Source: Porphyra umbilicalis
Taxonomy: Eukaryota; Rhodophyta; Bangiophyceae; Bangiales; Bangiaceae
DNA length: 64,000 nucleotides
Assembly: GCA_002049455.2 (NCBI GenBank)
Contig: KV918835.1
Span: 1 to 64,000, forward strand
Direction: 5' to 3'
The position numbers and the translations under genes were made by a program. Position 1 is the first letter of the stretch. The number at the start of each line of letters is the position of its first letter. This document shows, piece after piece, positions 30,814 to 57,410 of the stretch. The notes beneath the pieces were generated by a model that saw nothing but the letters and a program-made list of their open reading frames with translations, did no database searches and was not told the DNA's origin.

Positions 30814-33552
30814 TCCGTCTGGCACCAATCAACAACCATTGGCACCAATCAACGACCATACTGTAATGTGCGTTTTCCACAGTGTGTACGCAATAAATGT
30901 TTTTTTCAATTTTCTTATAAGTGCGCTCGCCCACTTTGCACTCTTGCAAACACAAACAGAAGAACGAGACCCAAACATTTCACAGACCAATGGACTCAGC
31001 AGCTCACAAGCTTTCCAACGGTGAAGGTTTGGCCTCGATTGAAGCATCTGACGGGGAGAACCCGAAGCAGACGTGCAGCCGCACACCCAGAGAAAAAGGC
31101 GCCACAAATCAAATACCCACGGCAATTCCGGGCCTGCAGGCCCCTGTGAGAGCCTTTTCGATGCTTCGGTGCTCGTCCGTCAGGGATGCCGGTTTTATTG
31201 CGGCAGCCAAGCGTCGTTGACGTCCCCCCCCCCCCCCACCCCTCTCTCTGGAGACCAGACGGCGTCTTTTTCCCCCTCGTTGTCCCCTATTCACCCCCAA
31301 ATCAACCATGGCACCCCCCCCCCCCGCTGTCGTGAGACCTCTCCTACGCCGGCCGGCACGTCCGGCCCCATTGCCAAGCCATCTGGAAGAGGCGCTGTCA
31401 CTCCCCAGCAGCGGTCGCAGATGCTGGAGCTGTTGGCCGCCGGCATGACAGTGACGCAGATTGCGGACGCGGCAGGTGTCACGCGAGGCGTGGCCAGGTG
31501 CCTGAAGCGGACTGGCGGCCAAGCGATCCGTCCCGGCCGCTCTCCGTTCTTCACCGAGGAGGAGGAAGAACTTTTGTTCCAGTTTCTACGAGTGCGAGCT
31601 CTTATTGGCCGCGGGCTGACGCGCGACGCCTTTCTGGTCCACTGTCAGGAGTACATCCTCTCGCTGTCGTCAGGTCGGCAAGATGATGCCAAGCGCTACT
31701 TTGGGGGCACCACCAAGCCTGGTCGGGCCTTTTTTCGGCTTTTCATGCGTCGATGGCCGCGGTTGAAGCAGTATCGCGTTGGCATGCTCGAGCAGGCCCG
31801 CGCCGAGAACTCGAGACCGGAGGTGTTGGCCAAGTGGTACGCGGGGTTGGATTTGTGCTACCGGGACCTTGGCATAAAGCAGGGGCGCCAACTATTCAAC
31901 ATGGACGAGACTCACGTGCGGTCTCGTGACCTGCTCACCGGCGGCCGGACGTCCATCGTCGCGACCGATGATATTGACAAGCCCGAGGTCGTCGCTCCAT
32001 CCATCGGGTCCGCCGCTTCTGGCTGTACGGCGGCCTTCACTGTGTCGCCCGGCGGTGTGGCTGCGCCCTACTTTTGTGTGGTCGACGGGGCGGCCAGTGG
32101 CCACGCGTATGTCAGTGTGGCTGAGAACGGGCACTCGAGATTTGTGCCGCTCGCGGCGCGCCTCAACGAGGGCGCCATGGTCACGAGACGGCGGCCACCC
32201 GGATTCGACAAGGACATCTTCGACATGTACGCGGCGCACTTTTCGGCATTTGCTGCCGGCTATTTCCCTCAGGAGAACAAGCTGCTGTCTGTTGATGGCG
32301 CTAAGGTCCACTTGTCGGCGTCTGGGCTGCTCACGCTCCTCAAGGCCAAGGTGTCGGTGATTGCTGAGCCGTCGAAATTGAGCCACCTCATCCAGGCATT
32401 GGACACGCCGACACTTTTTGGGCGGTTCCAACCGGCGTTTCGTCGCTGCATCAGGGAGCGGGCATCCGACTGCGTGGAGGCGGGCCGGCGGTTCAATGTT
32501 TTGGACCTAATGGACTGTATCAGCAAGGCGGCCGGTGACACCTTCACGCCGACCAATCTCGCGTCTGCCTTCCGTCGAGTCGGCATGTGGCCACTCGATC
32601 CGACACGTGTGCCGGTCGGGGCCCTGAGCAAGGGGGCTGCTCGCCCAGTTGTGGACGTAGACCTAGCCTTCCTGAAGGCGCGGCTGATACCCGTTTTGCG
32701 GAAGGAGCTGACAGTGCCTGTCGTCGCCAACGGCACCCTGTCCACGGCGGGGCGGCCGGTGGTGCTAACGGCGCCGGAGGTTTTGGGGGCGCTACAGTCG
32801 CTCGATGAGGAGAAGAAGCGGAAGGCTGCCGCCCAACAGGCCACGCGCCAGCGCAGAGCGAAGCGGTCAACGGAGCTTCAGGCCCAGCGGGAAGCAAAGA
32901 AAGCGGCAGCTGAAAAGGCCACGGCTCGCGCGGCGTGGCTCACCATGTGCGGCGAGGGGGTGGAGGTGGCTCGCTCTTGGCAGCTTGCACCACCCTCATC
33001 TCGCAAGCGGGCAAGTCGGCGCCGAGCTGCTCAGCAGCGACGCCGAGTGCAGGCACCGGGACGCCCACTACCAACACGGGAGGCCTGGCGCATCGCGAGT
33101 TTGGAGGCGGCGGCGGTGGGGCTGCAGAGAATGTGGGGATTGCGTGGCAGCGTTGCAAACTCGAGTGGTTGGCGTCACAGCGACGAGGGGTGGGGGGCAA
33201 CGGATGCAGTGCGGTGAAGCAATCTGGGCGGCAGCAACCGAAGTGGATGTAGCGTGTTTCTAAAGAAAAACCCTAGGGAGCCGCGCCCCGTACAATCAAG
33301 TACGAATTTCAACTACTCTGTCGACAGTGGCTGGATCATGAGATTTCGCACAAAACGCAATGGCTGTTGTTTGGTGCACCCCCCCAGACCGACCGGCCAC
33401 CAAGAGTAGAGGTGAGGGGCGTCACAGAAAAAAAAGAAAAATACCGTCAAACTCGGTAGACTCTCACGAGTGCAACGGTGTGTCTCGATCTGCGAATGGA
33501 GCTCCGAGTCCTAGGGAAAGTATTAAATGGTCGTTGATTGGTGCCAAACGGA
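30814..33552 (+). mobile_element. pogo-like Tc1/mariner transposon, apparently near complete
   Basis: A 2.7 kb element whose ends are TCCGTCTGGCACCAATCAAC and, in reverse, TCCGTTTGGCACCAATCAAC, with TA on both sides (30812-30813, 33553-33554). At the left end the unit TTGGCACCAATCAACRACCA occurs twice in tandem. The only long gene inside is the transposase, centred with about 260 and 335 bases of non-coding sequence on either side, which supports these limits. Confidence 0.75.
31308..33217 (+). CDS. pogo/CENP-B-like DDE transposase
   Basis: Catalyses cut-and-paste movement of the surrounding element. The open frame runs from at least 31073 to 33217, but the first in-frame ATG is at 31421. 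A better-placed ATG (CCATGG, 31308) lies in another frame and joins only if the C tract at 31313-31325 differs by one or two bases. An N-terminal Psq-type helix-turn-helix (MTVTQIADAAGVTRGVARCL) is followed by a CENP-B-like DNA-binding region (TEEEEELLFQFL to RRWPRLKQYRVG). The DDE_1 core has FNMDETHV, LLSVDGAKVHLS and HLIQALDTPTLFGRF, giving an apparent D-D-D triad. The C-terminal 130 residues are Ala/Arg/Lys-rich. No stop interrupts the core, so the enzyme could be active. Confidence 0.85.
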
Positions 33553-33695: not shown

Positions 33696-34067
33696 TATGT
33701 CAAAGAGGTTGAAGAGGAAGACGCGTGGCTTCGCTCCATGGGCGGGAGGGGGGGGAACTATGAAGATGGACGGCGGCCAGGCAGTCTTGGCATCACTGTC
33801 GCTGTAAAACAGAGGCAACTGCAGATGCAGAAGCTGCGGTCGCAGCCGCAGCCACCGGCGCAGACAATGTGGGAGGGGCATCCGTCTAGGAGGGGGCCAA
33901 CCCCGTGGCGCTTGGGGCGGCGTGCGAGGGCCCGTGGGCTGATTGTCTTGGGCTGCAGCACGGCGCCCTCGCCCACGTCTCCAGCGCTTTGGATTGCACT
34001 ATGTTAAGTTGGTCGGCGGCGTAATTACTCTATGAGATCACGCCCCAGTTCACGCCCTTTTCTGCTA

Positions 34068-34366
34068 GTGTCTATTTTACCGAGTGCATCATTTGATGCC
34101 CTGGGCATCATTTGATGCACTTTTTTGGCACTATTTTTTTCGTGCTTCTCGGCCTCGCACGCTCCTTTTGACAACAGAAACGGACTCAGAGATGCTTTAT
34201 TACTCTTGGGGGAACTCGGATCCATTGTGCTACGGATACAAACGGGGTGTCCTCCAGGCGCCAGAAAAAGGGGGGTCGAACCGTCGTTGTATGGACCTGT
34301 GCGAGGGTGCATCATTTGATGCACCACCGGGCATCATTTGATGCCATTTCGCGGTAGAATAGACAC
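34068..34366. mobile_element. MITE with GTGTCTATT ends and palindromic repeats
   Basis: A 299 bp element with ends GTGTCTATTTTACCG and CGGTAGAATAGACAC, flanked by TA. Near each end are two copies of the palindrome GCATCATTTGATGC. The larger element at 43307-47715 has the same ends and a related palindrome. It is inserted inside the hAT-like element, between its CACGCCC repeats and its right end. Confidence 0.8.
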
Positions 34367-34459
34367 TAGGGCGTGATGAGTGATCACGTTAAAAAACGTG
34401 CTTGCGATTACGTAAAACGTGACTTCGCAATCACGTAAGGGGCGTGAAGTACAAGCCTA

Positions 34460-35112: not shown

Positions 35113-38000
35113 ATGGCGTCGCCTTTCCGCTTGCAGTTGACGGTGTCGTTGGTGGCGCTGGTGGTAGCGATGGCGTCTTCGGCCATGGGCATTGGCGTCC
35201 TGAAGAGTACCTACAACGCTTCGACGGAGTTGGACGGGTCGGCGGCCACCCTTCACTGGACGCTGTCGCCATCCACAATCCAGTTGGCGCTCGTCGTCAA
35301 GGCGCCGTCGGTCGTTACGACCAACGCCTCCGCCTTGTGGGTTGGTTTCGGCATTGGGGACCCCCAGTCTGGCGGCATGGTCGGTGCCGACATTGTCACC
35401 GCCGAGTACGGGAGTGCCGCGGCAGACGGCGCCAACTGCAAAATTGTCGACCGCCACGTGCCAATGGTGGCCTACCCGCTTGGCTCGGGCGTCGGTGGAG
35501 AGGCCATCTTCCCTGTCCCTGATGACTGCCCCACCAAGCAGTCGTGGGTGCTCATCGCCTGCAGTGTCGACCCCACCACGGGGATGATGACTCTCGAAGC
35601 GAGCCGCTCCCTCGTGGCCCCCAACCCGGCGCAAGACCGCGACATTGTTGCTGGCCGCAACATCCTCATGTACGCCTACGGCGACGGCTTTGCCTACCAC
35701 GGCGCCGCGCGGCGGAGCGTGGAGGTCGACCTCACCGCCAGCGGCGTATCTGCGGCGCTGGCAGGCGACTTGGTCTCCACCGGCGCTCTGCCCCCAGACG
35801 CCGACGACTCCATCTTGCTGACGATGCCCAATTACACGGTGTCAACCAACCGCACCGACTATGCCTGCGCTACGTTTGAGCTAGACCCACCCGCGCCTGG
35901 CACGGTGCAGCAGATGGTCGCCGCCGAGGCGGTCATTGACTTGGCGACCTCGGGGGGGCGACTGGTGCATCATCTGGTCGTGTTGTCATGCGACCAGTCG
36001 CCCGAGTTCGAGTCTTTTAAGACTGGGAAGGAATGCCTGACGATGCTCCCCGTCTGTACCGAACAGGTCTTTGGGTACGCCTTGTCCATCTGTTGGTGTG
36101 GTTTGCGTCGTTTACTGCCTGATTGTTTCTTTGTGTGGAAAAGGAATCTGGTGGTGAGGTGCGTGCGATGGCAGCTCGGCTTGGTCGTCATGCTGGTTTC
36201 TGACCTTTTCCTTTGTGCCACGAGTCTGGCTGCTGTGGTTCTCTTGTCGTCGACTTTTCTTTCAACTTGTCCAGGTGGGCTGTTGGTGCCAAGCCACTGG
36301 TCATCCCGAACGAGGCCGGTTTTCCCATTACAATGGAGCGGCGTTTCTTTCTGCTTCAAGTCCACTACGACAACCCCGAGGCCCTGCCAGCTGTCGTTGA
36401 CTCCTCGTCCGTACGGCTGCACACGACAAGCCAGGCTCGGAAGTACGACAGCGGCGTCATTGGGCTCGGCAATCTGGGCATCTTTATGGGAGATGAGCGT
36501 GTGATGAGCAAAAACTACACGTACACCTGCCCAAGCGAGTGCACAAGTCAGATGGCGGGCCCGGTGACTGTCTTTTATTCGGTACGTCAGGTCTTTCGTT
36601 TGGTCCGTGCAGGTCGAGCAGAGAGGATGGCAGCGGCTGCTGCTTTGTTGTCGCATTTGCCGGGCTTTATCTACTGCTCGTGGACTGCATGTGGACTCAC
36701 TCGTATCGCTTACTCTCTCGTTTTCCTGCATGTTTCCTTCTGCTCTATGTGTCCTACGCATGGCATGCACTTCTCCTTCTCACAGGCGCTGCACGCGCAC
36801 TATACGGCGACAACCATGTGGACCAACCTCTATCGCAACGGCTCCTTTTTCCGCACAGTCGAGGCCGTCAAGCACTGGTCAAACGAGCACCAGCGCCCGA
36901 CGCTGTTCGAGCCTTTTACGCTGCTCCCCGGCGACCGCCTGACGGTCTCTGCCGAATACAATGTCGACAAAATCGTGGCGTCTGGCGAGGCGGCGCCCGC
37001 GTGGGGCCTCGGCACCCACGAAGAGATGCTGCTGACAGGCCTGTTTGTCTACCCGCGTCCGACGCGCGTCGGCCCCAACACGACGGACGGCGACACGATC
37101 AGCGCCTGTGGTGGCGCGTTTATCCCCACCTTGGGCGAGCAGTGGACCCTGTGCGCGGGCCGAAAAGCGGCGGATGCCAACGCGTCCGCGGCCGTGGAGG
37201 GCGTCGACTTTTTCAACCGGTCGGCGCGGGCGGTGGCCGACGAGGCCGGCTGGGCCGACCCCTTCAACGAGGCGCCCGCGTGTTTGGCCAACACTGGCGG
37301 CGGCGGCGGCGACGCGGGCGGCGGCTCGGGCGGGGGCGGCGGCGAGTGCTTCCCGGCCGCCGCCACGGTGCTGCGCCGCCGCCAGCACGCCGGCGCCGCC
37401 GGCTTGGAGGCGGTGCGCATGGACGCCCTGGCGCTCGGGGACGAGGTGCTCGGCGCTGACGGCGTCGTCTCCCCCGTGTATCTGTTTAGCCACGCCGACG
37501 CGGGGGCACGGGCGCCCTTTGTGCGCGTGACGGCCGTGGCGACGGGCGGCCCGCCGCGCGGCTGTGCGGCGTCTGATACCTGCGCGGCACGCCGTCACAC
37601 GCTGCTGATCAGCGCGGGCCACCTGCTGCCGACGGTGCGCGGCGGCGGCCGGGGGGCCACCCCCGCCCTGACCCCCGCCGCGTCGCTGGCGCCCGGTATG
37701 GTCCTCACGTCTGCCGACGGGAGCCCCGTGACGGTCACCGCCGTCGACTCGACGGTGCGTGCCACCGGCCTGTATCACCCCCACACGCTGTCCGGCACGC
37801 TGGTCGTCGACGGCATCGTTGCGTCTGACCGCACGACGGCGGTGCCGGCGGCGGTGGCGGCGGTGGCGACCGCGCCCTTGCGCGCCGCGTACGTGGCGGG
37901 GTGGACGGCGCCAGCGGCGGCGGTCAGCCGGTGGTTGACCGCGGGATGCCCGACGGCGGTGCGCGCGGTGGCGGCCGCTGTGACCGCCATTTCCTTTTGA
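35113..38000 (+). CDS. secreted copper monooxygenase with DOMON domain and C-terminal Hint (Hog-type) domain
   Basis: Exons 35113-36074, 36275-36581 and 36786-38000 join in frame to 827 residues; donors are GTACGC and GTACGT. Residues 1-26 form a signal peptide. A DOMON domain (about 27-210, with WVGFGIGD) comes first. The PHM/dopamine beta-hydroxylase-like core follows with all six copper ligands: HH at 286-287 (VHHLVVLSC), H351 (QVHYDN), H426 and H428 (HAHY) and M504 (HEEM). Such enzymes hydroxylate carbon next to amide or amine groups using ascorbate and oxygen. After a Gly-rich linker, ECFPAAATV at Cys611 opens a Hint domain: GDEVLGADG, SPVYLFSH, ISAGHLLP (Ser699, His702) and GTLVVDGIVAS. 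In Hedgehog proteins this cysteine attacks the preceding peptide bond. Cleavage here is inferred; serine replaces the usual threonine of TxxH, and the later cysteine of LASCY is aspartate. Confidence 0.85.
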
Positions 38001-39789
38001 GGCGGCTGGGGAAGGGGAGAGAGGGAGAGGCCCGACTGTGTGGGAATGGGTCGTGCTTGCATTGGCGAGGCCAACCGTCTTTTGGTGGTTTGATGCGCGA
38101 GTGGGGTGATTGTGTGCGCAAGTAATGCATGAAAGAAACCATGTCGGGGCAGGGATGGGGTCTCAGGAGTCCGTAGGACACCTACTGCAAGCAACAAGCG
38201 GCCAAGGCATCCCCAACAGGCGCTGCACGTCGAGCTGGAGACTTCATCTCTAAAAGATCCCGCCCTCCAACGGTTGGCTCCCACCGCCGCGCCGCTGGGT
38301 GCCCCACCGCCGCCGCCCGCACATGAGTCTCAGATGGCAGAGCCGGGGGGCGGGGGGGGGAGGCTGTGCTCGGGCGCCACGCGCCGCGCACCACGTGGAC
38401 GCGTGCACCCCCGCGGGCGGCGGCGGAGGCACGCGGTGGCGGTGGCCACCACGGCACGGCGGGGCGGGGTGGGCGGCCGCGTCGGCCGCGCAGGCGGCCG
38501 CGTGCGGCCGTTGCTTGCACGACTTGGGGTGCGCGTCCACGCGGGGTGTGTTGGGGGTGGGAGGAGGGAGGGGGCCTGTTGCCCATGGCGGGGGGGGGGG
38601 TGGGGGGCAAGCGCGCCCAGACTTGCAGATCGGCGCGCTCCCAGCGCTGGGAGTCGCGCCACCGGTGGCGCACCCCCCTGGCGGCGCCGCAGCGCCGTCG
38701 GGGGGAGGCGCCACCCGCCGTTGGCGCCGCGCCGACCGCGGCCGCCGACGCGCGGTCGGCGGCGGCGCCGCCGCCGCCGCCGCCGCCGCCGCGGCACCGC
38801 CCGTGGTTGGCGGGTGCCGCCGGCGGGTGCCGCCGCCACGGGCGCCCCGCCGCCGGCGGGGGGCGGGTGCGGCGGCCGACGGCGGCTGGCGGGCGCGCCG
38901 GCCGCCTGGCGGGCGGCGGCGGGGCGCGCCACGCGGGGCAGGTGGGGGAGGGGGTGCTGCCAGACGCGGGGCGGGGTCAGGGGGCAAGCGCACCCAGCCT
39001 TGCGGGCGAGCGCCCACCGAGGGTGCGATTGACGGCACGCCGAGGGGGCAGCCATGCCTGTGACCAAAAAAAAAAAAAGAAAACCCAAACAGCAGCTCGA
39101 ACGCCGCCACCCACGTTGTCCAACCCCCACCACGCGTGCCAGCACAGCGCCCGGCAACACGGCCGCTCGCGCGCCCAGATGAGGGCGACGCGCCGTCACC
39201 CCCGGCCATTGGCCAAACACCCATAAAGGGGCAAGCCGTTGCAACGCGGCGTCGGTCATTGCCTGGCCGACGCGTGCCCGGTCGTCGGCCCCGGCAGCGA
39301 CCGACGCGCGGTCGCTCCTACCGCCGGGGCGATGCGCGCGTGACGACGCCCGCGGCGGGGGGTGGGCGGCCGCACCGTACCGCCGCGCGCCACGGATGTG
39401 GGTCCGCCAGCCAAGGACGGCATGAGCAACGAGGCCCAGGCGCGGCGCGCGACGACAATGCGGTGGTGGACCAGGGGCTCTCCCAGTCTGTAGGGGTGTC
39501 CGACAAGCAACAAGGATGAGCCGCAGGCGCGCCGCCTCCTGCCCCCAAAACACGATACTCAGGTGCCTCATCGAGTGAGACAAGGCAGGTGCGTCGGCCA
39601 CGCATCCAACTCGCCCCTCCACCCACCAACGCGGCCGACCGCACCCGCGCAGCCGGCGCAACGCGCGGCCCCGTCACCAGCGGGGGCGCCCCCCCCCCCG
39701 TCGACCCCCCACGCACCCCACCCGCTCCGCCCGCTCGGCCGCGAGCGGGAAAACCCCCCCCGCGCCCGCCGGCGCCCCCCCCCCGCGCC
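38001..39789. other. GC-rich spacer without a recognised gene
   Basis: Starts with 3' flanking sequence of the monooxygenase gene, then becomes triplet-rich (CGG/GCC) from about 38270. It contains an A tract at 39066-39077. Open frames on both strands are low in complexity. The frame at about 39560-39790 may belong to the PB1 gene that runs in from the right. Confidence 0.4.
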
Positions 39790-41320
39790 ACCCACCGAAC
39801 GGCCACGCCCACCCCCGGTGCGCTCAGGGCGGCGGTCAGGGCGGCGACGAGTGCCGCCGCGTCCGCGGGCGCCACGCCCTCGACGGCAAGAGCGGTCGCC
39901 ACCCGGTGGGCGGCCGCGTCGACCGCAGCGGCGGGGAGGCCGCCCGCCGATACCCCCCCCCCCCGCCACCGCCGCCGCCATCGCCGCCGCTGCCGCTGCG
40001 GCCGCTGCCACGGCGGTCGCCGCCGGCGGCAACGGCGGCGAGCCACGCCGCCCCAGCACCCCCACCCACCGCACGGCGCGCGGCGGCCGCGAGGCGGCCG
40101 CCCCCGATGCGGCGCCCGGCCGCCACCGCCGCGCCGAGCGTCGATGGCGGACGTGGCGGGGCGCCACCTCCGCCGCCGCCGCCGCCACCGCGCGACGCGT
40201 CGCCGCCCCCACCACGGCGCGCCGCGTCGCCGCCGCCGCCGCCGTCCCACGCCGCAACCGCCGCGTCGGCGAGGCACCGCACGGCGGCGCCGGCGCGAGC
40301 GCCCCACACTGCCGCCGCGGGCGGCTCGCCGTCGGCCGCCGCCCCGTCGGTGCCGCCGCCCCCCCACCGGCGGGCGCGCTCGGCGGGCGCCCCGCCACCC
40401 CCCCACCGCCCCCCCCACAAACGCCGCGGCGGCGGCGGCGAGCCACACAATGGCGGCGGCGGCGGCCGCCAGCACCGCCGCGGCGGCGGCGAGCAGCACG
40501 GCGGCCGCGGCAGACACAAAGGCGGCCGATGGTACTGCCGCGTCGGCCACTGCCCGGCGCAGGCCGTCGGCCGCCCCCGGCGCCGCGTCGGCGGCGGCTG
40601 CCGCCGCGGCGGCGGCCGCCGCCACCCACCGCGCCGCTGCTCCGCGGCCGCGGGCCACGGCGGCGGGCGCCGCGTCGGCCGCGGCCGCGGTGGCGGCGCA
40701 GAGGAGCCACGCGGCGGCCGCGGCGAGGTCGGCCGCGAGCGTGGCCGCGTCGAGGGGGGGTCCCCCGCCCGGGGGGGGCACGCGTGGCGGCGGCGGCGGC
40801 CGCACCCGTGGTGGCGGCGGTGGCAGCAGAGGCGGCCGCCGCCGCCCGCGGGGTGACGGAGCGGGGCACAGGGGGCGCGTCAGTGACCGCGGCCGCCGTC
40901 GGCGGCCCGTCGGCCGCCGCGCGCGTCGGCGGCGCCCGCGCGTCGACGCCCGCCCCGTCGGCGCCGTCGGCCGCGTGCGCGTCGGCGTCTGCGTCGACGC
41001 TGCCCGCGGGGGCGGTCGGGACCACGACCGCCGGCGGCGTACCGGCAGCGACGGGCGGCTGCGCGGGGCGGCGTGGCGCGCCTCGGTCGGGGAGCGCGGG
41101 GGCAGGCGGCTCGCCCGCAACGGCCACGCGGGCGGCGCGTGGCAGCGCGGGCGGGGGCGCCGCGTCTGCGACGGGCGCGGCGGCGACGGACGGCTGCGTG
41201 GTGGGCGGTGGGGGCGCCACGGCGCCCTCACCCGCTACGGGCGACGGGGGGGCGGCGGCCACCTCGACGGCCGCCGCATGCGTGGCGGCGGGCGCCTCGG
41301 CCGTTGCCGGCACGGATGCC

Positions 41321-41351
<31 letters not shown>

Positions 41352-41626
41352 AGGCGGCGGGGACCTCCCCCCCCCCCCCCCCCTGTGCACCGTCAGCCGC
41401 ACCACCGCGCCGTCGGCGTGCAGCCGAAGTGCCTCGTCCCAGTCGGCACTCGTCGACAGGGCGACCGCGTCGCCCTCCTCGTCCGTGTAGGTGAGGCCGA
41501 CCGACGCGGCGGGGATGCCAAACGCCGCGCCGACCGCCGCCGTGAGGCGCTCCACGGTCGGGGGGGGGGGAGCGACAACCGCCGGATGGTGCCGCCGTGG
41601 GTGGCCTTGAGGGGAACCGCCGCCAT
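39790..41626 (-). CDS. PB1-domain protein with Ala/Pro-rich tail
   Basis: Starts at ATG 41626 with MAAVPLKATHGGTIRRLSL, the first strand and basic cluster of a PB1 domain (Lys before HGG, then RR). After a C/G tract the domain continues in the next frame as VERLTAAVGAAFGIP, then LTYTDEEGDAVALSTSADWDEAL, an acidic OPCA motif, and VVRLTVHRG. PB1 domains pair head to tail, basic face to acidic face; this one has both faces. A second G tract shifts frame again into a long Ala/Pro/Val/Thr-rich tail (VPAASAAAA, VEVAAAPPSP) and, past a third tract, LDAATLAADLAAAAAWLL. Each frame change sits on a homopolymer. The PB1 call is solid; the 3' limit and the partner are unknown. Confidence 0.6.
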
Positions 41627-43303
41627 GGTGGAGGGGGGGAGGGGGCGACAGAGACGACCAGTGGGGGGGGGGGGGACGTGCGCACGGCGGGCAGGGAGTC
41701 ACAGGCAGGCGACGCGGGAGGGGGGAGGGGGGGGGGGGGCACCCTGCCGCTGCCCCGCCGTCGTCGCCCGCCGCCGTCAGCGGGGCGACGGGTCCTTTAC
41801 GCAGCCGCTGGCGGCGGTAGCCGCCATGGAGCCCCCGGTGGCGGCGGCGGGCGGCCGCGGATGGCGGCGGCGGGCGGCTGCGGATGGCGGACAGCGAGTC
41901 CCGTCGCGCAGACAGCAAGCCGGGGGGGCGCTGCGTGGCGACGGGTCCCACGCGCCCCACCGCACCACGGCGCCTCGGCGCATCCCGTGGCGCTGACGGC
42001 CGTTGGCCCTGCCGCACAAACAGACCCGCCCGCCAAAGGCCCACGACGAGGCGGCGGCCACCCGCCTTGCTGTCCCGACACGGCAACGCCTCTTCAGGGT
42101 CTTCTGGATCATGAGACAGCCTTCTGATTGGCTGAGAGTGCCAGGAAAGGGTTTTCTGCTGTATTTTCTTGCCGACTACACCAGTAAGAGACACAGATGA
42201 GGCGACGAGGAACTTCCTGGATGAAGAAAAAGGGACCCCCAAGCTCACAAGATGCGCTTGTTCTTCTCGTGCGATATCTTTTTTTTTCCCTCCCAGAAGC
42301 TCATCGCCTCACTCTACCGCACGGCCTCGCCATCAGGCCAGAAAAAAAAGTTTTTAACTGGGTGTGGCGATTGACCGCCGACCCAGCTCCTCACGGTACA
42401 GTACAGTACGTACTTGCAAGGACGGTGATCCAGAGCCAGAAGCGCCTGCAGCCTGCAGGCTGCACCCAATTGGGTACAGTCATTGCGCATTTTTCTGTGG
42501 AACCTTGGTAATCGTAGGGTTGACGAGATGCAAGGATCTCGTCATGACGTCATGACGGTCGCGGTGGGGTGCGCTGCAGCCCGGTGCATCCCCGATTTGT
42601 CAACATACGCGGCCGCGCCGCGTATGTTGACAACCCCGGGATGCACCGCGCTACACGTATTAATAGTTCCGGCGAAGGCGCAAGAGTTGACATCAGTAAT
42701 TTTACTATAGGAAGATCAATTTGTCTCTATCCAGCCCCCAATTCTGTCCCTGTGACCGGCGGCGACAGCATCAGCCCGTCTGACAAACCACTCTCGTCAC
42801 TTCGCCTCGTGGAATCCATTCTTGTGTCTTGCCCCTACGTCAACAACATCCCTTCCACCTGTTCACCAACCAACCACAGCCTCTTATATTCCTGCCGAAC
42901 GGCTGCGGTCGCTGCTGACACAGCAAGGTCTTCCGACAGACTGACTGGTACAGCGTGGCGGCGTGCACGCAAAATACTTGACATATGTCAACGTTGCTAC
43001 CGCCTCCCAAGTATCACCTGACCAGAGCTGTGCGACAAGAATGATATCGCCTGCGATGTGAAAGACAAAAGCGCAAAAAGCCAACCAGGTCGACGACGGC
43101 ATCCGCTGGCGTGCGCATGGCGCAGGAGCCCCGTCGCAGGCCTGCACGTCGTCAATTTTAGAACGAGTGCTTAAGCCAGGGGATAGAGAGGATAAAACAC
43201 GCCGAGGACAGATGGTCCCAGACATCATATCGACATGCGTCGCGGAGGCAGTCTGCCAAACGGGCGGGTGCATCGTGGTACGAGTCGGTGCGAAGGTGGC
43301 CAT
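41627..43303. other. spacer with a large hairpin; no recognised gene
   Basis: GC-rich up to about 42100, then balanced. Short open frames only. A CAGCCAATCAGAAGG motif (reverse of 42117-42131) contains a CCAAT box and could serve the PB1 gene promoter about 490 bases away. Confidence 0.35.
42584..42646. repeat. 63 bp hairpin
   Basis: Arms of 30 bases (GTGCATCCC outer part, TTGTCAACATACGCGGC inner part, 17 of 17 paired) around a three-base centre. Pairing continues weakly outside. No flanking duplication is obvious. Confidence 0.7.
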
Positions 43304-47715: not shown

Positions 47716-48317
47716 TAGAACGTCCAGGCCAGTATTGACAGTATTGATATAAATCAATTGGATCGTACTGGGAATATACTTGGCTCGCGTGCCTCGTAAA
47801 TACAGTAACGCTCTGTCTGGTGCCCGCATGTTCTTTCGGAGATAATCACCCCGGTTCTGCGGGCCCCGCGGAACTGCGAAACGTGCTGCGAACGGGCCTC
47901 AGAGCCGTAAGAGCCGGCTTAACCCGGCGTGTGCAGAGGCGATGACCACCAAGCGTTCGAAAAGGGGCATCTTTTTGACTGACAGACTGGCTAACAGCCA
48001 ATGGAGAATGCGCATTTGGATGGCGGGCCAACCACGAGGCAGAAGTTCCGTTGAAACCCAGACGAGACAAAACACCCACTCTTAACTGGGCGTGATGCCA
48101 CGTCCCCGTCGCCCGGCACGACGCCTCCGCCATCGTGCCACCACACCCGCCTCCCCCGCCCCGTCCCCTATTGCCCCGCGCCGACAGCACGACAGCGGCC
48201 ACGACACCACACTTCCCGACGACGCCAACGACCTCCACCACCTCTACGCACATCTACCACAGCGGCGGCGGCGGCGCCCCCACGGCGGCGCCGACGACTG
48301 CCCCGACCCCGCCCCGC
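47716..48317. other. spacer, no gene seen
   Basis: Balanced composition at first, then GC-rich. No repeat or domain found. It includes the 3' flank of the left paralogue. Confidence 0.4.
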
Positions 48318-51300
48318 CTACCACGGCGGCGCCGCCGGCGGGGGGGCGTCAAAGAGGCGGCTGCGGCGTGCCCGCCACGTCGGCGTCGTCGGCACACACA
48401 TCAGCGCGCCGAGGCGGGCGACCAGGTCGGGCGACAGGATGGGCGCTTCGGCCGCGCCCGTGGCGCCACCGTCGGCCGGCGCGGGGGCGGGGGGGGGGGG
48501 GGGGCGCCGCCGCCGGCGGCGGCCGCGGCGCAATGGCGGGCAGCGGTTGCGCGGGCGCGGGGACGTGGCGGCTGGCGTCGGCGGCGGCGGCCGCCTGTGG
48601 GGGGTACGCGAGGCTCGGCGGCAGGCAAAGGAGGGGGTGCGCAGTGGCGGCCGGCGCCGTCGGCGCCGTCGGCGGCGTCAGACGGGCGCCTCCACCGCTG
48701 CCGCCGCCGTCGCGGTCGTACCACCCGGCCAGTGTGCGGCCCGTGTTGCCACCCGCCCCCGGGTGGGCCGGCCGCTGCCGCCGCGGCACGGGCGGCGGCG
48801 TCAGCCCGAGGTGCACGCGGGGGCGCTTGCGGGTGCCGCCGCCGCCACGCACTGGCGGGGTGGGGTGACCCCCGCGAGCGGCGGACGCGGCTGACGTCGC
48901 CGCAGCAGTGGCGGTGGCGCTCGCGGCGCGGGCGGCTACGTTGAGGTCCCCGTCTGACAGGTGCGCCAGCGGCGCGCGCGCCGCGGACTGCGTCGAGCGC
49001 GGCGGCGTGGCCTTGCCCAATGCCGTCGGCGCGACGCGGCTGCCGGCGGCGGCGCCACGGTCGTCCCGGCGCCCCCGTTGCGTCGCGCTCCGCGCGGCGG
49101 CGGTGGCCGCCGCCGCCACCGCCGTCGCACCAAAAGCGCTGGTCGTGTACGCCGGCACCCCAAACGTGTGGGAGCGCGTGCGGGGTTTGGCCGACGGGGC
49201 GGTGGGGTGGCGGCGGGGGGTGGGCGTCGTACCGCTGCCAATGGTGATGCGGACTGGTGTGGGGCGAGGCGGCGACACAAGAGACGAGAAAAACGCAGGG
49301 CGGAGGGGTGGCGATACCAGTGGGAGCGACATCACCAAGGCGAGGCATGGAGCGGCATAGCAGTTGGTGATGGAGCAGACTGTTAGTGTCTGGCGGCGTG
49401 GCACCAGCAATGGTGGACGCTCATCCCTCTCCTACACCAGTCTCTCTGGGTCGTCCCGGTCGGTCGGCGCGTCGGCTGACGGCCACTCGGGTGCGGCGGC
49501 GACGTACCTCGGTCGGACAGGGAGCGCAGCCGCCGCGCGCGAGGTGGCTTTGGCGGTGGCGACGACCGCGTCGTCGACGACACTGCCGCCGGCGCGGACC
49601 GGCGGCGGCGCCGCGGCGGCGGCGGCGGCGGCGGCGGCGGGGGCGGCGGGATGGCACCCAGCGCCGGCCACAAGGACGGCGGCGGTGGCGGCAGCGGCGG
49701 CGGCAGGTGAAGAGCCGGTGGCGGCAGCTGCCGTAGCGGCGGCGGCGCCCCGCCCAACACCCCGGCTGATTCCGCGTAGGCAACCAGGGTGGCGTCGAGC
49801 ATCTTCCCGTCGCTGCCGTCGCCATTCGCGGCGCCGGCGCCACCAGTGGCACCGAGCTCGTCGTCCTCGGCCGTATAGTCGATGCGGCGGCTCACGTGGA
49901 GCGGCGCGGGCGGGCCGTGTGCGGGGGTGGCGGCCAGGGTGGGGGCGGCCCACGGGTCGTCGCCAAAGAAGCTGACCGGTCCGGTGAGCGGCGCAAGCGC
50001 TGTCCGAGCAAGCAAGTGTCGACATTGTGGGGGAGGAAGCAGTGGCGAGCGGAGCCGCGCATTGGCGTCGTGGGTTGGCAGCGCAGCCGCGGAGCACCGT
50101 CCAGAGCAAACGCGACCAGGCACAAAGCGGCGCCAGGCGCGAGGCGCCGCGAGGCGGCGGTGACCAAAGCGCAAACGAGTCAGTTGCCGCGCCCAAGCCG
50201 ACCAAACGTAGGGCACCACGCCCACCTGCCGACGTAGAACCATAGCCACCAACCGAGTGGCGGCGTTTCCGCTCCCCGTCGTCGTCATGCCCCCCCCCCC
50301 CCCCTCACGGACCGCGGCGCCCACCACGCCACGTACCTGAGCCCCCCTCCCCCCCCCCGCCGAGCCCCCCCGCCCACCCCAACGGCGTCCACGCGGGCGC
50401 CTCGGGCACCGCCGACCCCCCCCCCGTGACGGCGTCGGCAGCAGCACCCCCGGCGTCGGCAGCATCCCCGGCGTCGGCAGGAGCATCCCCGGCGTCGGCA
50501 GCAGCATTGCGGGCGACGGCGGGCCGTCGCCGTCCCCCGCCGTCAATGGCTTGATGGCCGAGTAGCCGCCGCCGTCGCCAATGCCGGCACCGCCGGCAGC
50601 CGCCAGGCCCGCCGCCCCCCACAGGGCGCCGCCGGTGCCCCCCCCGCCTCCATCCCACGCCGCCCGGCGCGTCACTGGGGTGACGCCCCACGGGGACGCC
50701 GCAGGCAGAGGCGACGCCGCGCGACGGCGGCGGGCGGCCGGCGGCGGCGAGGCGCCGGTCGGACCCATGGCGCCCGTGGTCCTCGACACGGGCCCGCCGA
50801 TGCGCTGCCCGTCACCGCCGCCGTCGCTGTACGCGCCCCCGGCCGTGCGGACGGTGGGGACGCGTCCCGCCGACGTGCTTGCCGTCGACCGCCGCAGGCT
50901 CCGCGACGGCCACCGGTCGGCCTTGCCCCCACCGACAGCTGACCGGCACGCTCCGTCCGTCGACGGTGGGGCGGTGGCGCACGTGGTGCTGGTGGCCCCC
51001 GTCGTTGACGCGGCCAAGGGGGTGGTGGCGGCGCGTTGCCGCAGGGGTCGGCGTCGACCATCACGGCGCGGCGGCGGCGGCGTGGCCGACGGGCCGCGCC
51101 GCCCCTCGGCCAAACGGGGGCGCGCCCTCGGGAGCCCGAGCGCACGCACCGAGGCGGGGGGAGGGGGGGGGGGGGGGGGGGGGGTGGCCCAAGGGACCTC
51201 TGGCGGCCTGTCCCGCGACGCGGCGCCCCGTGGGCCGCCAATCCACCAACATTGGTGGCGCTGCGGGCGGGTCGGATCCCGTCACCTTGGTTCCTCCTGC

Positions 51301-51490
51301 ATGCGCCCCTCCCCCCCCCCCCCCCCCCCCCCCGCATTGGCGACGCCGCGGCTGTGGAGGCGGGTGGCGGCACCCCTGCCACGGGCCCCCCCGGGCGGCG
51401 CCGTCGAAACGGCCGCGCACGACGACGCGCGTGTGGGGTGCCGCCCGGCCGGGGCCGCCGGCATGGCCGCCGCGGCCGCCGCAGTTTGAA
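48318..51490 (-). CDS. Pro/Ala-rich protein, left copy of a head-to-head paralogue pair
   Basis: Minus-strand gene with no recognised domain. Supported exons are 50337 and upstream (5' limit unclear), 49999-49508 and 49253-48318, with GTACGT donors at 50336 and 49507 and CAG acceptors. The second exon encodes LAPLTGPVSFFGDDPWAAP, SRRIDYTAEDDELGATG and RRLRSLSDR; the third begins VRITIGSGTTPTPRR and includes RTRSHTFGVPAYTTSAFGA, APLAHLSDGDLN, RKRPRVHLGLTPPPVP and ends RRSRLFDAPPPAAPPW. These islands are conserved in the plus-strand copy at 51730-55036 while the linkers vary. The upstream exon has PTPGMLLPTPG repeats. Homopolymers shift frame near 48490. Probably an intrinsically disordered protein; function unknown. 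Confidence 0.6.
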
Positions 51491-51499
51491 AAAATGGTG

Positions 51500-51725
51500 G
51501 CGCGGATCGGGGTGAAGCGCAGGTTGGTTTGAATAAATTTATCATCCGGCCAGTGTATAACCGTCGCGGGGGGGTGTCTCGTCCGCCATTGCTTTCGCAG
51601 GCCTCCTGCTGTGATGCGATTGGCCAACTGTGAGCAAACCGGAGGGCCGCTTAAGATCCACCCAGCCGTATCCGGCCGCCACCGAGCGTGTTGCACGCCC
51701 CCATTCAAACTGGCGCTTCACCCGC
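51500..51725. promoter_or_regulatory. shared intergenic region, candidate bidirectional promoter
   Basis: The axis of the inverted duplication. On both sides GCGCTTCACCC and TTTCAAAC occur in outward orientation (minus near 51525-51485, plus near 51713-51740). Between them lie an AATAAATTTAT stretch (51534-51544) and GATTGGCC (a reversed CCAAT box, 51619-51626). Spacing of about 200 bases between two divergent paralogues suits a shared promoter. Confidence 0.45.
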
Positions 51726-51729
51726 CGCC

Positions 51730-51926
51730 CTTTCAAACAACACCCCCCCCCCCCCCCCCCCCCCCCGTCCCAGCCGCGATCCCCACCGAGCCGGCCCTCG
51801 TGCCGCGGCTGACGGAAGCCTCGCGGCGGCCCCACCGGTGCCGTGGCTGCTGCCACTGGTACCCCTGTACCGCCGCGCCGCTGCGCACGTGCCGTCAGCC
51901 ACAGGTGGCTCCTTTTTGCCTGGGGA

Positions 51927-51959
<33 letters not shown>

Positions 51960-52250
51960 GGGGGGGGATGGCCTCCACCACCCCAGGCAGCAGCACCCGA
52001 ACGTCGGTCGGTGGACTGCCGGTCAGGCGTCTGCCAGGGCTCTGGCGGGGGGCGGTCACGGGCCGCCCGCTCGCCCCCCCCCCCCCGCCGTCGTCGACCG
52101 CCCTCGAGGTCGGGCGCCCCGTGGCCGCGCCCGCGGGGCACGGGGACGGCACCGTGCGGCTGCCCGTGCCGCTGCCGCGGGCGGCCGCCGCCGACCATGG
52201 GGGTGGGGTGCCCCCCCGCCCACCCGCGGCGGTGGTCAAAGGGGCGCCCC

Positions 52251-52285
<35 letters not shown>

Positions 52286-54212
52286 GCCGCCGGTGCGGAG
52301 GGGGGTGCCGCGCCGCCCTCCAAAGCCACCCCGCCCGATTTTCCCCCGCCGCCGCGGGGCCCCCGTCCCGCCCGCGGGGGGTGCGGCACGCGGTCGCGTC
52401 GCGCGCGGGGGCGGGGGGCGACACCACGACGGCGGCGGCGGGCGTGTCGGCGGGCAGACCCCCCCCCCCGCTGCCGTCGGCCCCCGACCGGTCGCGCTGC
52501 GTGGCGCCGACGGGCGCGCCATGCGTGTGACGGGCGCCTCGCCGCCGGCGGCGGCGCGCCGCCGCCGGCGGCGGGCGGCGTCGCCACCGGCGGCAGCGCC
52601 CCCGTGGGGCGTCACCCCCGTGACGCGGCGGGCGGTGGGGGGGGGGGGGGGGGTGGCGCCGCCGGCGGCGCCCTGTGGGCGCCGGCGCGCCTCGCGGCTG
52701 CCGCCAGTGCCGCCGGCGGCGGCCACGGCGGCGGCAGCTCGGCCGTCAAGCCGGCGACGGCGGGCGGGGGGGGCGACGGCCCGCCGTCGCCGGCAATGCT
52801 GGCGCCGACGTCGGGGGTGCGCCTGCCGACGCCGGGGGGGCTCCTGCCGACGCCCTCACGGGGGGGGGGTCGCCGGTCCCCGAGGCGCCCGCGTGGACGC
52901 CGTTGGGGTGGACGGGGGGGCTCGGGGGGGGGGGGAGGGCGGCTCTGGTACGTGGCGTCGAGGGCGCCGCGGTCGGTGAGGGTGGGGAGGGACCAAGATG
53001 GGGGGGGGGGTGACGCCGCCACACGGTCGGCGGCTCTGGTTGTCGGTCTGCAGGTGGGTGGAGTGCCCTGCGTTTGGGCGGCTTGGGCGCGGCAACTGAC
53101 TCGTTGACGCTTTGGCCACCGCCGGCTCGCGCCGGCTCGCGCCTCGCGCCGCGTCGTGCCTGGTCGCGTTTGCTCCCGCGAGTACTCTGCGACTGCTCTG
53201 CCAACCCGTACACCCAACATGCGCTTCTGTTCGCCCCGTCTCCCCCTCCACCACGCCATCCCTCGCTCGCTCGGGCAGCGCTGGCGCCGCTCACCGGGCC
53301 GGTCAGCTTCTTTGGCGACGACCCGTGGGCCGCCCCCGCCCTGGCCGCCACCCCCGCACACGGCCCGCCCGCGCCGCTCCACGTGAGCCGCCGCATCGAC
53401 TATACGGCTGAGGACGACGAGCTCGCCGCCACCGGTGGCGCCGGCGCCGCGAATGGCGACGGCAGCGGCGGGGGGACACTCGACGCCACCCTGGTTGCCT
53501 ACGCAGAGTCAGTCGGGGTGTTGGGCGGGGCGCCGCCGCCGCTACGGCAGCTGCCGCTACCGGCTCTTCACCTGCCGCCGCCGCCGCTGCCGCCGCCGCC
53601 GCCGCCGTCGCGGCTGCCGCTACTGGCGCCACCGCCGCCGCCTTGGTGGCCGGCGATGGGCGCCATCCCGTCATCCCCCCTGCCGCCGCCGCCGCCGCCG
53701 CCGCGGCGCCGCCGCCGGTCCGCGCCGGCGGCAGTGTCGTCGACGACACCGTCGTCGCCGCCGCCAAAGCCACCTGGCGCGCGGCGGCTGCGCTCCCTGT
53801 CCGACCGAGGTACGCCACCCCCACCCGTCCGGCCTTCAGCCGACGCGCCGACCGACCGGGACGACCCAGAGAGGACAATGTGGCCGAGGGACGACCGTCC
53901 GCCATTGCTGGTGCCATGTCGACATACACTAACAGTCTGCTCCATCGCCCTTTGCGATTCCGCTCTATGGTTTGCCTTCTTGTCACTCCCACTGGTACCG
54001 CCATCCCTCCGCCCTGCACTCGTCTTGCCATGTCACTGTCCCGCCCTCACCAGTCCGCATCACCATTGGCAGCGGCGCCAGCCCCACCCCCCGCCGCTGC
54101 GCCACCGCCCCGTCGGCAAGATCCCGCACGCGCTCCCACACGTTTGGGGCGCCGGTGTACCACACAAGCGCCTTTGCTGCGACCGCGGCGGCCGCCACAA
54201 CCGCGGCCGCCG

Positions 54213-54252
<40 letters not shown>

Positions 54253-55036
54253 AGCCGCCGCGCGAGGTGCGGCACGGCCGTCGTACCGAGGCAACAATGG
54301 CGCCGCCGCCCGTACACCCATCGACCGGGGTAGCACCACGCTGGCATTGTCCGACGGGGCCCAACCGCTGCACCCGGCGCACGCCGCGGCGCGCGCGCCG
54401 CTGGCACACTTGTCCGACGGGGACCTCAACGCGGGCGCCCGCGCCGCCACCGCGGCGTCGAGCGCAGCCGCTCGGGGGGGCGAGCACTCCCCGCCGCGCC
54501 TCGGCGGCGGCACCCGCAAGCGCCCCCGCGTGCACCTCGGGCTGACCCCACCGCCGGTGCCGCGGCGGCACCGGCCGGCCCAGCCGCGCGCGGTCGGCGA
54601 CACGGGTGGCACCCCGGCCGGGTGGGACGACAACAACGGCGGCAGCGGTGGGGGTGCCTGCCCGCCGTCGCAGATGGCGCCGACGGCGCACGCCGCCGCC
54701 ACTGCGCGGGCCCTCCCCCCGCCGCCGAGCGCCGCGCACCCCCCACCCGCGGCAGCGTCGGCCGCCGCCGCCGGCCGCCACGCCCCCGCGCCCGCGCAAG
54801 CGCTGCCCGCCATTGCGCCGCGGCCGGCGGCGGCGGCGGCGGTGCCCCCCCCCCCCCCCCCCCCCGCCCCCGCGCCGGCCGACGGCGGCGCCACGGGCGC
54901 GGCCGAAGCGCCCATCCTGTCGGCCGACCTGGCCGCCCGCCTCGGCGCGCTCATGTGCGTGCCGACGACGCCAACGTGGCGGGCGCGCCGCAGCCGCCTC
55001 TTTGACGCCCCCCCGCCGGCGGCGCCGCCGTGGTAG
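51730..55036 (+). CDS. Pro/Ala-rich protein, right copy of a head-to-head paralogue pair
   Basis: Plus-strand counterpart of the gene at 48318-51490. Supported exons are one ending at 52947 (donor GTACGT), 53279-53809 (donor GTACGC) and 54054-55036; the last two join in frame as SLSDR-V-RITIGSGASPTPRR. Conserved islands are LAPLTGPVSFFGDDPWAAP, SRRIDYTAEDDELAATG, RTRSHTFGAPVYHTSAF, APLAHLSDGDLN and the same RRSRLFDAPPPAAPPW end. The first-exon frame changes at G tracts (for example 52923-52935), and the ATG is not certain. An Ala run (54170-54260) and Pro runs differ in length from the left copy. No known domain; function unknown. It converges on the FAM32A-like gene. Confidence 0.6.
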
Positions 55037-55382
55037 GCGGGGCGGGGTGGGGTGGGGGCGGCCGCCGGCGGGGCCGTGGGGGGGGGGGTCGCACACGCGG
55101 GTGTGGTCGGTGCCGCCAGCGCCGGTGACGCGGGCGGGCGGCGGCGGCGCTGGTTTGGTGTCGGCCACGGCCGGCAGCCGGCGGCGGCGGTGGTCGGCGT
55201 GCAAGGCGGTGTGGCGGTGGGCGCCGCCGTGCGGCGGCGACGTGTTGGCGGGCGCGGGGCGGAGCTTGAAAGGAAAGAACCATGTGCACGACGGCACGAC
55301 AATGGTGCGCAAGGGAGGTCCAACACCAACGGGCGGCCGCGAGCAGCGAGCGGGGCGCCCCACCCCACAGCCCGCCCGCCGG

Positions 55383-55962
55383 CTACTTGGTGAGGCCGAC
55401 CTTGAAGAGGTCATAGTGCTCGGGCTCCTTGGCGAGCGTCTCGTTAAAGTTCTGCACGCCGCCACGAGGGGGGGGGGAGGGGGCAAACCGGGAGCGCGTC
55501 ATGCGAGCAAGCAAAGCGCACCGCACCCGTCCGTCGACGGCAGGTGAGCGAAACGAAAGGGGGGAGGTCCACGCGCAAAAAAAAAAAAAAAAAGGTCAGC
55601 AACGAGTCCCGCCACACCCCGCCACCCGTGCCACCCGTGTCTGCCGGCGCGCCCCCCCCCCGTGCAGGGGTCACCCCCCCACGCATCCCAGGGCACCCCC
55701 CCCCCCCCACGTACCTCAATGTGCTCCCGGTGGGTCGTCTTGGCAATCGCCGCAATGCGTTGCGCTTCGCGGCGCTCGGCGACCGTCTCAAAGCGGCGCT
55801 CCGCGTCGGTCGGCGGCGGCCGCGACGCACCCCCCCCCCCGTCGCCACTCGCCGCCGTCGCCGGCGGGTCCTCCGCCTCCGCCTCCCCCCCACCCCCCTG
55901 CGTGACGCGGCCACCCCGCCCGCGCGGCAGCCGACGGCGGCCGCCCGCCGCGGCGACGCCCG

Positions 55963-55996
<34 letters not shown>

Positions 55997-56398
55997 CCCC
56001 GCCGCCGCGCCCGACGGCGCCGACGAGGCGGCCGACGAGACGGACGGGGTGGAGACGGAGGAGGCGGAGGAGCCGCCGTCGGAAAAGGAGCCCGCGGACG
56101 GCGTCGCCTCGCCGAGCTCCCGCAGCCGCGCGCGCCGCGCGGCCGCGTCGACGGCGGCGCCGGCGGCGGCGGTGGCGCCGCGGCCCGCGTCTGACGGCGC
56201 GCCGGCGGCCGACGCCGCCCGCGGCACCGTCGGCACCGTCGTTACTGGCAGGAGGGAGGTGATGGACAGCACCGCCCCGCCGCGGTGGAGGCGGAGGGGC
56301 TCCCGGATGAGGCTCGCGTAGGCGGCGCCGTCGGCGTCGACGCCCCCGCCGCCGCCGCCGCCGCCGTCGTCGCCCGCCGCCGTCGACGGGGGGGCCAT
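55383..56398 (-). CDS. FAM32A: FAM32A-like spliceosomal protein
   Basis: Two exons, 56398-55715 and 55451-55383, joined by a GTACGT/CAG intron in phase 0, give 250 residues. The C-terminus is the family signature: AERRFETVAERREAQRIAAI, AKTTHREHIE and across the splice NFNETLAKEPEHYDLFKVGLTK, matching the Phe-Glu...Arg...Thr-His...Asn...Glu-His-Tyr-Asp...Lys-Val...Thr-Lys end of FAM32A. The N-terminus keeps a short EPLRLHRGG block like the family's PLKLKG. In animals FAM32A is a small protein of the catalytic spliceosome that helps exon ligation. This copy is more than twice the usual length of about 110 because of Gly/Ala/Ser/Asp-rich sequence between the two blocks, including an Asp-Ala repeat coded by GCGTCC units. 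An acceptor-like site just upstream of the ATG suggests a 5' UTR intron. Confidence 0.8.
55965..55994. repeat. hexanucleotide repeat (GCGTCC)5
   Basis: Five exact copies, coding for alternating Asp-Ala on the minus strand in the FAM32A-like gene. Confidence 0.9.
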
Positions 56399-57278
56399 GG
56401 CCGCCGGTGCGGCGGTGCACTGTGCGGGTGGGAGAGGAGCAAGCGTCAAGGGCGTGAGCCGGCAAAAAAAAAAAAAGGGGGGACGTCTCACCCACCACAG
56501 GCGGCACGGGGGGCGGCGCACAGCGAGCTGCAACGGCGGCGTGGTCGGGGCGGGCGGCGGGGCGGGCGCGGCACGGCCAAGGCGCCGCGACGCGCGCGAG
56601 CGCGCTGCGTCATGGTCCGGGCACAGAGTCTGACACGTGGCACATCCGAAATGGATGGTGACTTCTCAGTCTTGCCTCCTGCAAAATAGAAAGTGATTAC
56701 GTTTTCGGTTTGAACGGACGGGGTGGGCTCGTGTCTGCTTGGGACGGTGACGCGCTCGTGGTCAAACAGACAGACGACGCGTGCACCGCCCTTTCCGCAC
56801 GGTCCGTTGAATGCGGCGTCGCTCGGGTCCATGGGGTGTCCCCAGCTCGGCCGTTCCCGCGAAACAACGCGCGCGTCCGTCGCGCAGCGTGCGTCTTGCC
56901 AGGCAAAAATAAAAACAAAAAAAAGATGACCATAAAAATGGGAGCGGGACCCCCCAGTCAGACGCCCACATTTGGTCCTGGGGACGGGGACGGAACGGAA
57001 ACGTCCACCCCGGGGCGGGCGGCTCGCGGGGCCAGACGGCACGGCCACGCGGTCGCCCCGCGCTCGCCGCGGGCAACGACAGGGGGACGCGTCGGCGGCC
57101 GCCGCCGCCGCCGCGGCACCAGACGCGGCGCGCCGCGCGACTGCCCGACGCCCCGGGCGGGAGCACGAACCAACCCCCGCCCGTCCGCCGCGAGCACGTG
57201 CACAACCTCCACACCCGACCGCACCGCGCACGGCACACCGCCGTCGGGGTCGACCCCGCCGCCGGTCGGCCAAACGGC

Positions 57279-57315
<37 letters not shown>

Positions 57316-57362
57316 CCCTCCCCCCTCACCGTCCATCGCCGCCACCACGCCTTTGCCCCTGG

Positions 57363-57400
<38 letters not shown>

Positions 57401-57410
57401 ATCCCCGTGC
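56399..57410. other. region between two minus-strand genes
   Basis: Holds the 5' flank of the FAM32A-like gene (A tract at 56464-56476) and a balanced stretch around 56620-56960 with no gene seen. On the minus strand 57365-57400 is a 36-base G tract right after the coiled-coil frame, probably intronic. Confidence 0.4.
57365..57400. repeat. 36-base poly-C tract
   Basis: Uninterrupted C run, the longest homopolymer noticed in the window. Confidence 0.95.

Follow-up and report, generated by a model that had tools for sequence, protein, structure and literature searches.

That animal Hedgehog proteins undergo cholesterolysis is established (PMC13060885, PMC9163320); in their HhC domain, Asp46 (Asp303) is described as the base for cholesterol, the D46A mutant forming the thioester and failing in the reaction with cholesterol (PMC13060885). 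The N-terminal partner is reported to be a bystander to HhC activity (PMC13060885), which makes a swap of partners chemically plausible. Furthermore, a fly Hedgehog engineered to D46H, a 'general base swap', is reported to keep its structure and activity and to accept a broader range of sterols (PMC9163320, PMC8529194). Varied N-termini are already known from the Hog proteins of red algae (PMC2362128), and kelch-Hint (K+H) fusions have been published for the Cyanidiales (PMC9812998, PMC13353863); the function of non-animal Hog proteins is described as unknown, with lipid modification only suggested (PMC13353863). Here, a gene of the red seaweed Porphyra umbilicalis is analysed that lies at 35113-38000 (+) of a 64,000-nt window (the whole stretch of DNA under study, from contig KV918835.1) and encodes, with two introns, an 827-residue protein in which DOMON and a DBH-like copper monooxygenase are fused to Hint. 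Coordinates are positions in the window, forward strand, and 'own genome' denotes the 83.8-Mb assembly. The best explanation for this protein, at a probability of about 0.58, is a self-cleaving, sterol-adding precursor that would set its enzyme free with a C-terminal sterol ester.

The gene structure, domain order, conserved residues and predicted folds were computed, as were the orthologues and paralogues. The original prediction, made from the letters alone, had proposed a signal peptide, a DOMON domain, six copper ligands and a Hint domain starting at Cys611, an order that is confirmed, as are its boundaries. Both Pfam copper domains (77.4 bits against a cut-off of 30 and 34.9 against 23) and the Hint profile (43.3 against 29.7) score above their cut-offs, and at E ≤ 1 these three are the only domains that Pfam reports on the protein, with no Hedgehog signalling domain. 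The domain search thus recovered the copper and Hint parts but not DOMON, which is not called on the whole protein and was therefore assessed by pairwise comparison, by a scan of the isolated domain and from its fold. The six copper ligands (five His and one Met: H286, H287, H351, H426, H428 and M504) align with those of DBH; in an alignment of 27 rows, 26 have His at the first three positions and the remaining row has a gap, and the last three are conserved in all 27. The predicted structure has the DBH fold, DOMON included. M89 and H196 of DOMON, each conserved in 37 of 38 rows, are candidate haem axial ligands, a role that we presume from the biology of cytochrome domains. These features point to a DBH/MOXD-type copper monooxygenase with predicted secretion and predicted copper- and ascorbate-dependent hydroxylation; human DBH (4ZEL) and DBH/MOXD proteins with DOMON differ from it in the absence of Hint, which was listed for none of P0016-P0050 among the candidates scored.

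With regard to the Hint part, both Cys1 and the (T/S)xxH motif are present (C611, S699 and H702), and the modelled domain lies 1.2 Å from fly Hedgehog. An intein was rejected, since the domain ends in VASDRTTAV, the aligned rows have no HN there and the nearest fold is the Hedgehog Hint. All 59 aligned Hints (28 of the own genome, 31 public) have His at the Asp46 position, and on this alignment the red-algal Hints are naturally in the D46H state. The likeness extends past Hint into the tail, where the family profile A3 aligns with Hedgehog 6td6 to residue 438 and the family's first tail helix matches the start of the Hedgehog sterol-recognition region (SRR), the counterpart of the adduct-recognition region (ARR, motif K). 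Compared with a public relative, P0002, the protein is identical at 134 of 185 positions in DOMON, 205 of 287 in the copper core, 48 of 78 before the linker, 6 of 20 in the linker, 98 of 165 in Hint and 31 of 52 in the tail, so by these identities the linker drifts and Hint and tail are conserved. In P0002 the linker region (residues 591-621) has a predicted local distance difference test score (pLDDT) below 50.

P0002, of 818 aa and with 3,366 bases in its longest contig, covers the whole order without introns and is therefore probably a cDNA. The same order occurs in Pyropia relatives, namely in the public gene predictions MMPV_005235 and MMPV_005236 of Pyropia vietnamensis (P0003 and P0004). 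P0008 shares it and ends before the tail, the gene model P0010 (P. yezoensis) holds half a Hint, and the models P0006, P0011 and P0012 stop soon after the copper core, without Hint, and may be truncated. Among the 7,995 candidates with most shared words, Hint was present in none of P0016-P0050 (animals and protists, where named). A DOMON-DBH protein used as query found five DOMON-DBH loci in the own genome; the PF03712 profile alone found two, a lower number probably due to introns and divergence. Hint is borne by the window gene, C27 and C108, whereas the C450 paralogue ends where the linker begins (GGAPTCSAVAA*), with no Hint match listed on its contig, and the C640 paralogue is interrupted by the contig end. 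In the DBH tree, the Hint-bearing sequences fall in one clade (support 1.0) that also holds P0001, P0006 and P0012 and is adjoined by the C450 clade (0.949); with several truncated rows and distant outgroups, this tree does not separate gain from loss of Hint.

The two paralogues C27 and C108 look damaged or divergent. In C27 (L047, ~5240-5480) the frame departs, past TTAV, from the tail shared by the family, and a tail-like stretch runs on in a different frame; in C108 (L038, ~5030-5530) Hint is divided between two frames. True divergence, an intron, decay or an error of assembly may lie behind either case. These paralogues would agree with a Hint that has lost catalysis and become a mere C-terminal appendage; this is nonetheless very improbable, as the catalytic positions are conserved in the Hints of the window protein, P0002, P0003, P0004, P0008 and C27, against the drifting linker.

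Transcripts ending before Hint had been named in advance as counter-evidence. The eukprot transcript P0001 does lack Hint, with intron 1 spliced and intron 2 retained, but the 80 residues at its C-terminal end match a locus on contig C68. Because its C-terminus belongs there and intron 2 is kept, P0001 is probably an assembly chimera; an alternative Hint-less transcript was rejected on account of the C68 tail, and trans-splicing is less likely. The Hint-less P0001, P0006, P0011 and P0012, and the 65 splice combinations that are open, would also agree with an artefact in which neighbouring genes were wrongly joined or the assembly is in error. This is hardly credible, given the origin of the P0001 tail, and a two-gene artefact was rejected because a single exon contains the entire Hint together with three of the copper ligands and because the Pyropia relatives, as well as the paralogues, share the order.

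In the proposed mechanism, a secreted DBH/MOXD-type precursor with a C-terminal Hog domain (Hint plus adduct-recognition tail) would pass through the secretory pathway, where Cys611 would attack the Glu610-Cys611 bond in an N-to-S acyl shift assisted by S699 and H702. An external nucleophile, made reactive by His659 at the Asp46 position, would then resolve the thioester, while the helical tail would keep Hint at the membrane and present the nucleophile. Cholesterol appears to be the likeliest nucleophile, since reports give it as the main sterol of Laurencia and of red seaweeds at large (PMC5104453). A sterol ester at its C-terminus would anchor the released enzyme, leaving the Hint part to be discarded. 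The secretion, the cleavage, the adduct, the anchoring at a membrane and the substrate of the enzyme are all features that we infer. Of the two events foreseen by the original prediction, self-splitting before Cys611 is well backed by the anatomy (the nucleophile, SxxH, His at the D46 position, the closeness of the model to Hedgehog and the paralogue ending at the start of the linker) and is still a predicted event; the small-molecule adduct has been narrowed to a sterol, and it too stays putative, and some Hedgehog features are absent.

Several observations weigh against the sterol-adding precursor, in addition to the Hint-less gene models and the two disrupted paralogues described above. The residue at -1 is never Gly in the 59 aligned rows, whereas it is Gly in Hedgehog; in the window protein it is Glu610, and Asp771 stands in place of the motif J Cys. 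The tail counts only 52 aa, its Hedgehog alignment is limited to the first part, leaving the rest of the SRR unaligned, and the confidence of its model is low (block means 44-69 across the last 39 residues). Moreover, the number of Cys in the 59 rows is partly a consequence of their selection by the C[FVL]P motif, and the sequence sets contain near-duplicates (L027/L028; L025/L030/L034).

The non-Gly -1 residue, the short tail and the replaced motif J Cys would suit a cleavage without adduct, in which the cut at Glu610/Cys611 is followed by resolution of the thioester by water and the Hog part serves only to control how the enzyme matures or folds; spontaneous hydrolytic autoprocessing has been reported for vertebrate Hedgehog constructs (PMC13060885). 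This alternative seems unlikely, although it deserves serious consideration. The residue at the D46 position is reported to serve the second, nucleophile step, because D46A Hedgehog still forms the thioester (PMC13060885), and both the invariant His at this position and the conservation of the tail start with Hedgehog speak against mere hydrolysis. A non-sterol acceptor, such as a cell-wall sugar, a lipid head group or a protein amine, by which the Hog domain would attach the enzyme to wall or matrix, is improbable. The reported widening of sterol tolerance by a His base in fly Hedgehog might extend to non-sterols, and tails vary among Hint groups; however, the tail start resembles the sterol-recognition region and nothing observed points directly to an acceptor of this kind.

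The own genome has a large Hint repertoire. PF01079 gave 80 matches, 77 of them over the cut-off alone or with neighbours; as three genes were matched twice, there are at least 77 Hint places, 74 over the cut-off, as a lower bound. For the survey of partners 35 Hint loci were retrieved and 30 frames scanned (29 plus L012). A partner lies upstream of Hint in three: an imelysin Peptidase_M75 in L033 (C21:227242; E 1.2e-29), whose order recurs in the public relative P0054, DOMON in L012 (E 4.1e-5, below cut-off) and a copper domain in L047, the C27 paralogue (E 0.0044, below cut-off). L018 has a thymidylate kinase match downstream of Hint and L023 a weak EF-hand, and the remaining scanned frames gave no Pfam partner. 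Carbonic anhydrase matches were found just upstream of Hint at C439:41811-43849 (-), C455:14628-16274 (-), where both share one 897-aa frame, and C220:122481-124093 (+); public proteins with this combination are P0056, P0059-P0062, P0074 and P0075. For the public P. umbilicalis Hint protein P0072, the best match in the own genome reaches 57% identity, so that a near-identical copy is lacking there. In the Hint tree, whose deep nodes are weak, the DBH-Hints of C27, the window and P0002-P0004 cluster (0.985). The two M75-Hints likewise pair with each other (0.976), and so do the two DOMON-Hints (0.907). The carbonic anhydrase Hints form no single clade, and P0008 is separated from the main DBH-Hint clade, at weak nodes, by L032 and P0052/P0053. 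Since the tree groups mostly by partner, partners and Hints appear to have travelled together largely, not wholly. As a separate observation, C243:31984-51783 holds seven Hint matches, six over the cut-off, on both strands within ~20 kb.

It may tentatively be proposed, with rather more doubt than confidence, that the Bangiales possess a protein-sterylation system of dozens of secreted Hog precursors with a natural His base, a counterpart to glycosylphosphatidylinositol (GPI) anchoring. Its cargo, an equally doubtful proposal, might include copper monooxygenases, carbonic anhydrases and an imelysin-type peptidase, from which Hint would cut itself and leave a C-terminal sterol. Three Patched-family matches, sought as possible exporters of sterol-proteins, were set aside as too general to be evidence.

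The DOMON-DBH-Hint fusion is a variant of the known Hog proteins. Like the non-Hedgehog Hog proteins described from red algae and protists, it joins a secreted N-terminus to Hog, and like the red-algal ones, in which the motif J Cys is reported as S, T or D, it has lost that Cys and kept motif K (PMC2362128). In contrast to Hedgehog HhC (fly 1AT0; D46H mutant 6TYY), the partner is an enzyme instead of a signalling domain, and Glu610, His659 and Asp771 take the places of the Gly at -1, Asp46 and motif J Cys that mark a bona fide Hedgehog. The kelch-Hint proteins are likewise red-algal Hints behind another domain, in multicopy families, but are described with kelch in place of DOMON-DBH, as subtelomeric and from another algal class (PMC9812998; PMC13353863). 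In the part of the 2008 Burglin survey available here, neither a copper monooxygenase nor a carbonic anhydrase is named as a Hog partner (PMC2362128). No publication on a copper monooxygenase-Hint fusion was found in the open-licence literature, in searches aimed at this fusion and not separately at carbonic anhydrase-Hint; the domain order is nevertheless already present in the P. vietnamensis gene predictions. By analogy, these data suggest that a seaweed may cut, and perhaps sterol-tag, a secreted enzyme as animals process one signal. Hint here sits on enzymes with measurable activity and location, in algae with cholesterol as their reported main sterol; it is a natural counterpart of D46H, and the Hint-free paralogue provides a built-in control. 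These properties make the question of Hog function directly testable. New self-cleaving sterol-transfer domains could come from such fusions.

Table 1. Features of the DOMON-DBH-Hint gene in the window.
Feature	Position	Strand	Basis or remark
Exon 1	35113..36074	+	signal peptide, DOMON, start of copper domain 1; P0001/P0002/P0003 agree across junction
Intron 1	36075..36274	+	splice junction same as P0001-P0003
Exon 2	36275..36581	+	comparison with public relatives
Intron 2	36582..36785	+	not in P0002/P0003; kept in transcript P0001
Exon 3	36786..38000	+	H426/H428/M504, linker, Hint, tail, stop; single uninterrupted exon
Predicted signal peptide, residues 1-26 (end approximate)	35113..35190	+	hydropathy peak only; start Met as in P0001
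DOMON, residues 30-213	35200..35751	+	pairwise comparison, isolated-domain scan, fold
Cu2_monooxygen, residues 236-357, across intron 1	35818..36383	+	ligands H286, H287 (35968-35973), H351 (36363-36365)
Cu2_monoox_C, residues 400-507, across intron 2	36510..37037	+	ligands H426 (36792-36794), H428 (36798-36800), M504 (37026-37028)
Gly-rich linker, residues 591-610	37287..37346	+	poorly conserved; 6/20 identical to P0002
Predicted cleavage site Glu610/Cys611	37344..37349	+	Cys611 aligned with fly Hh Cys258
Hint, residues 611-775	37347..37841	+	C611 nucleophile position; Pfam Hint match
Hint residues H659 (D46 position), S699, H702	37491-37493, 37611-37613, 37620-37622	+	
D771, position of motif J Cys	37827-37829	+	
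Tail, residues 776-827	37842..37997	+	three predicted helices; 31/52 identical to P0002

In the surroundings of the gene, a 305-bp element resembling a miniature inverted-repeat transposable element (MITE), with 18-nt terminal inverted repeats, lies at 34065-34369, 743 bp upstream; at least 40 own-genome copies, itself included, have 88-100% identity (40 scored of 222 candidates). A 721-residue open frame at 31052-33217 looks transposase-like by eye and gave only weak, sub-cut-off helix-turn-helix matches in Pfam. In 2-kb steps, blocks with a G+C content of 76-84% occur at 38000-42000 and 48000-58000.
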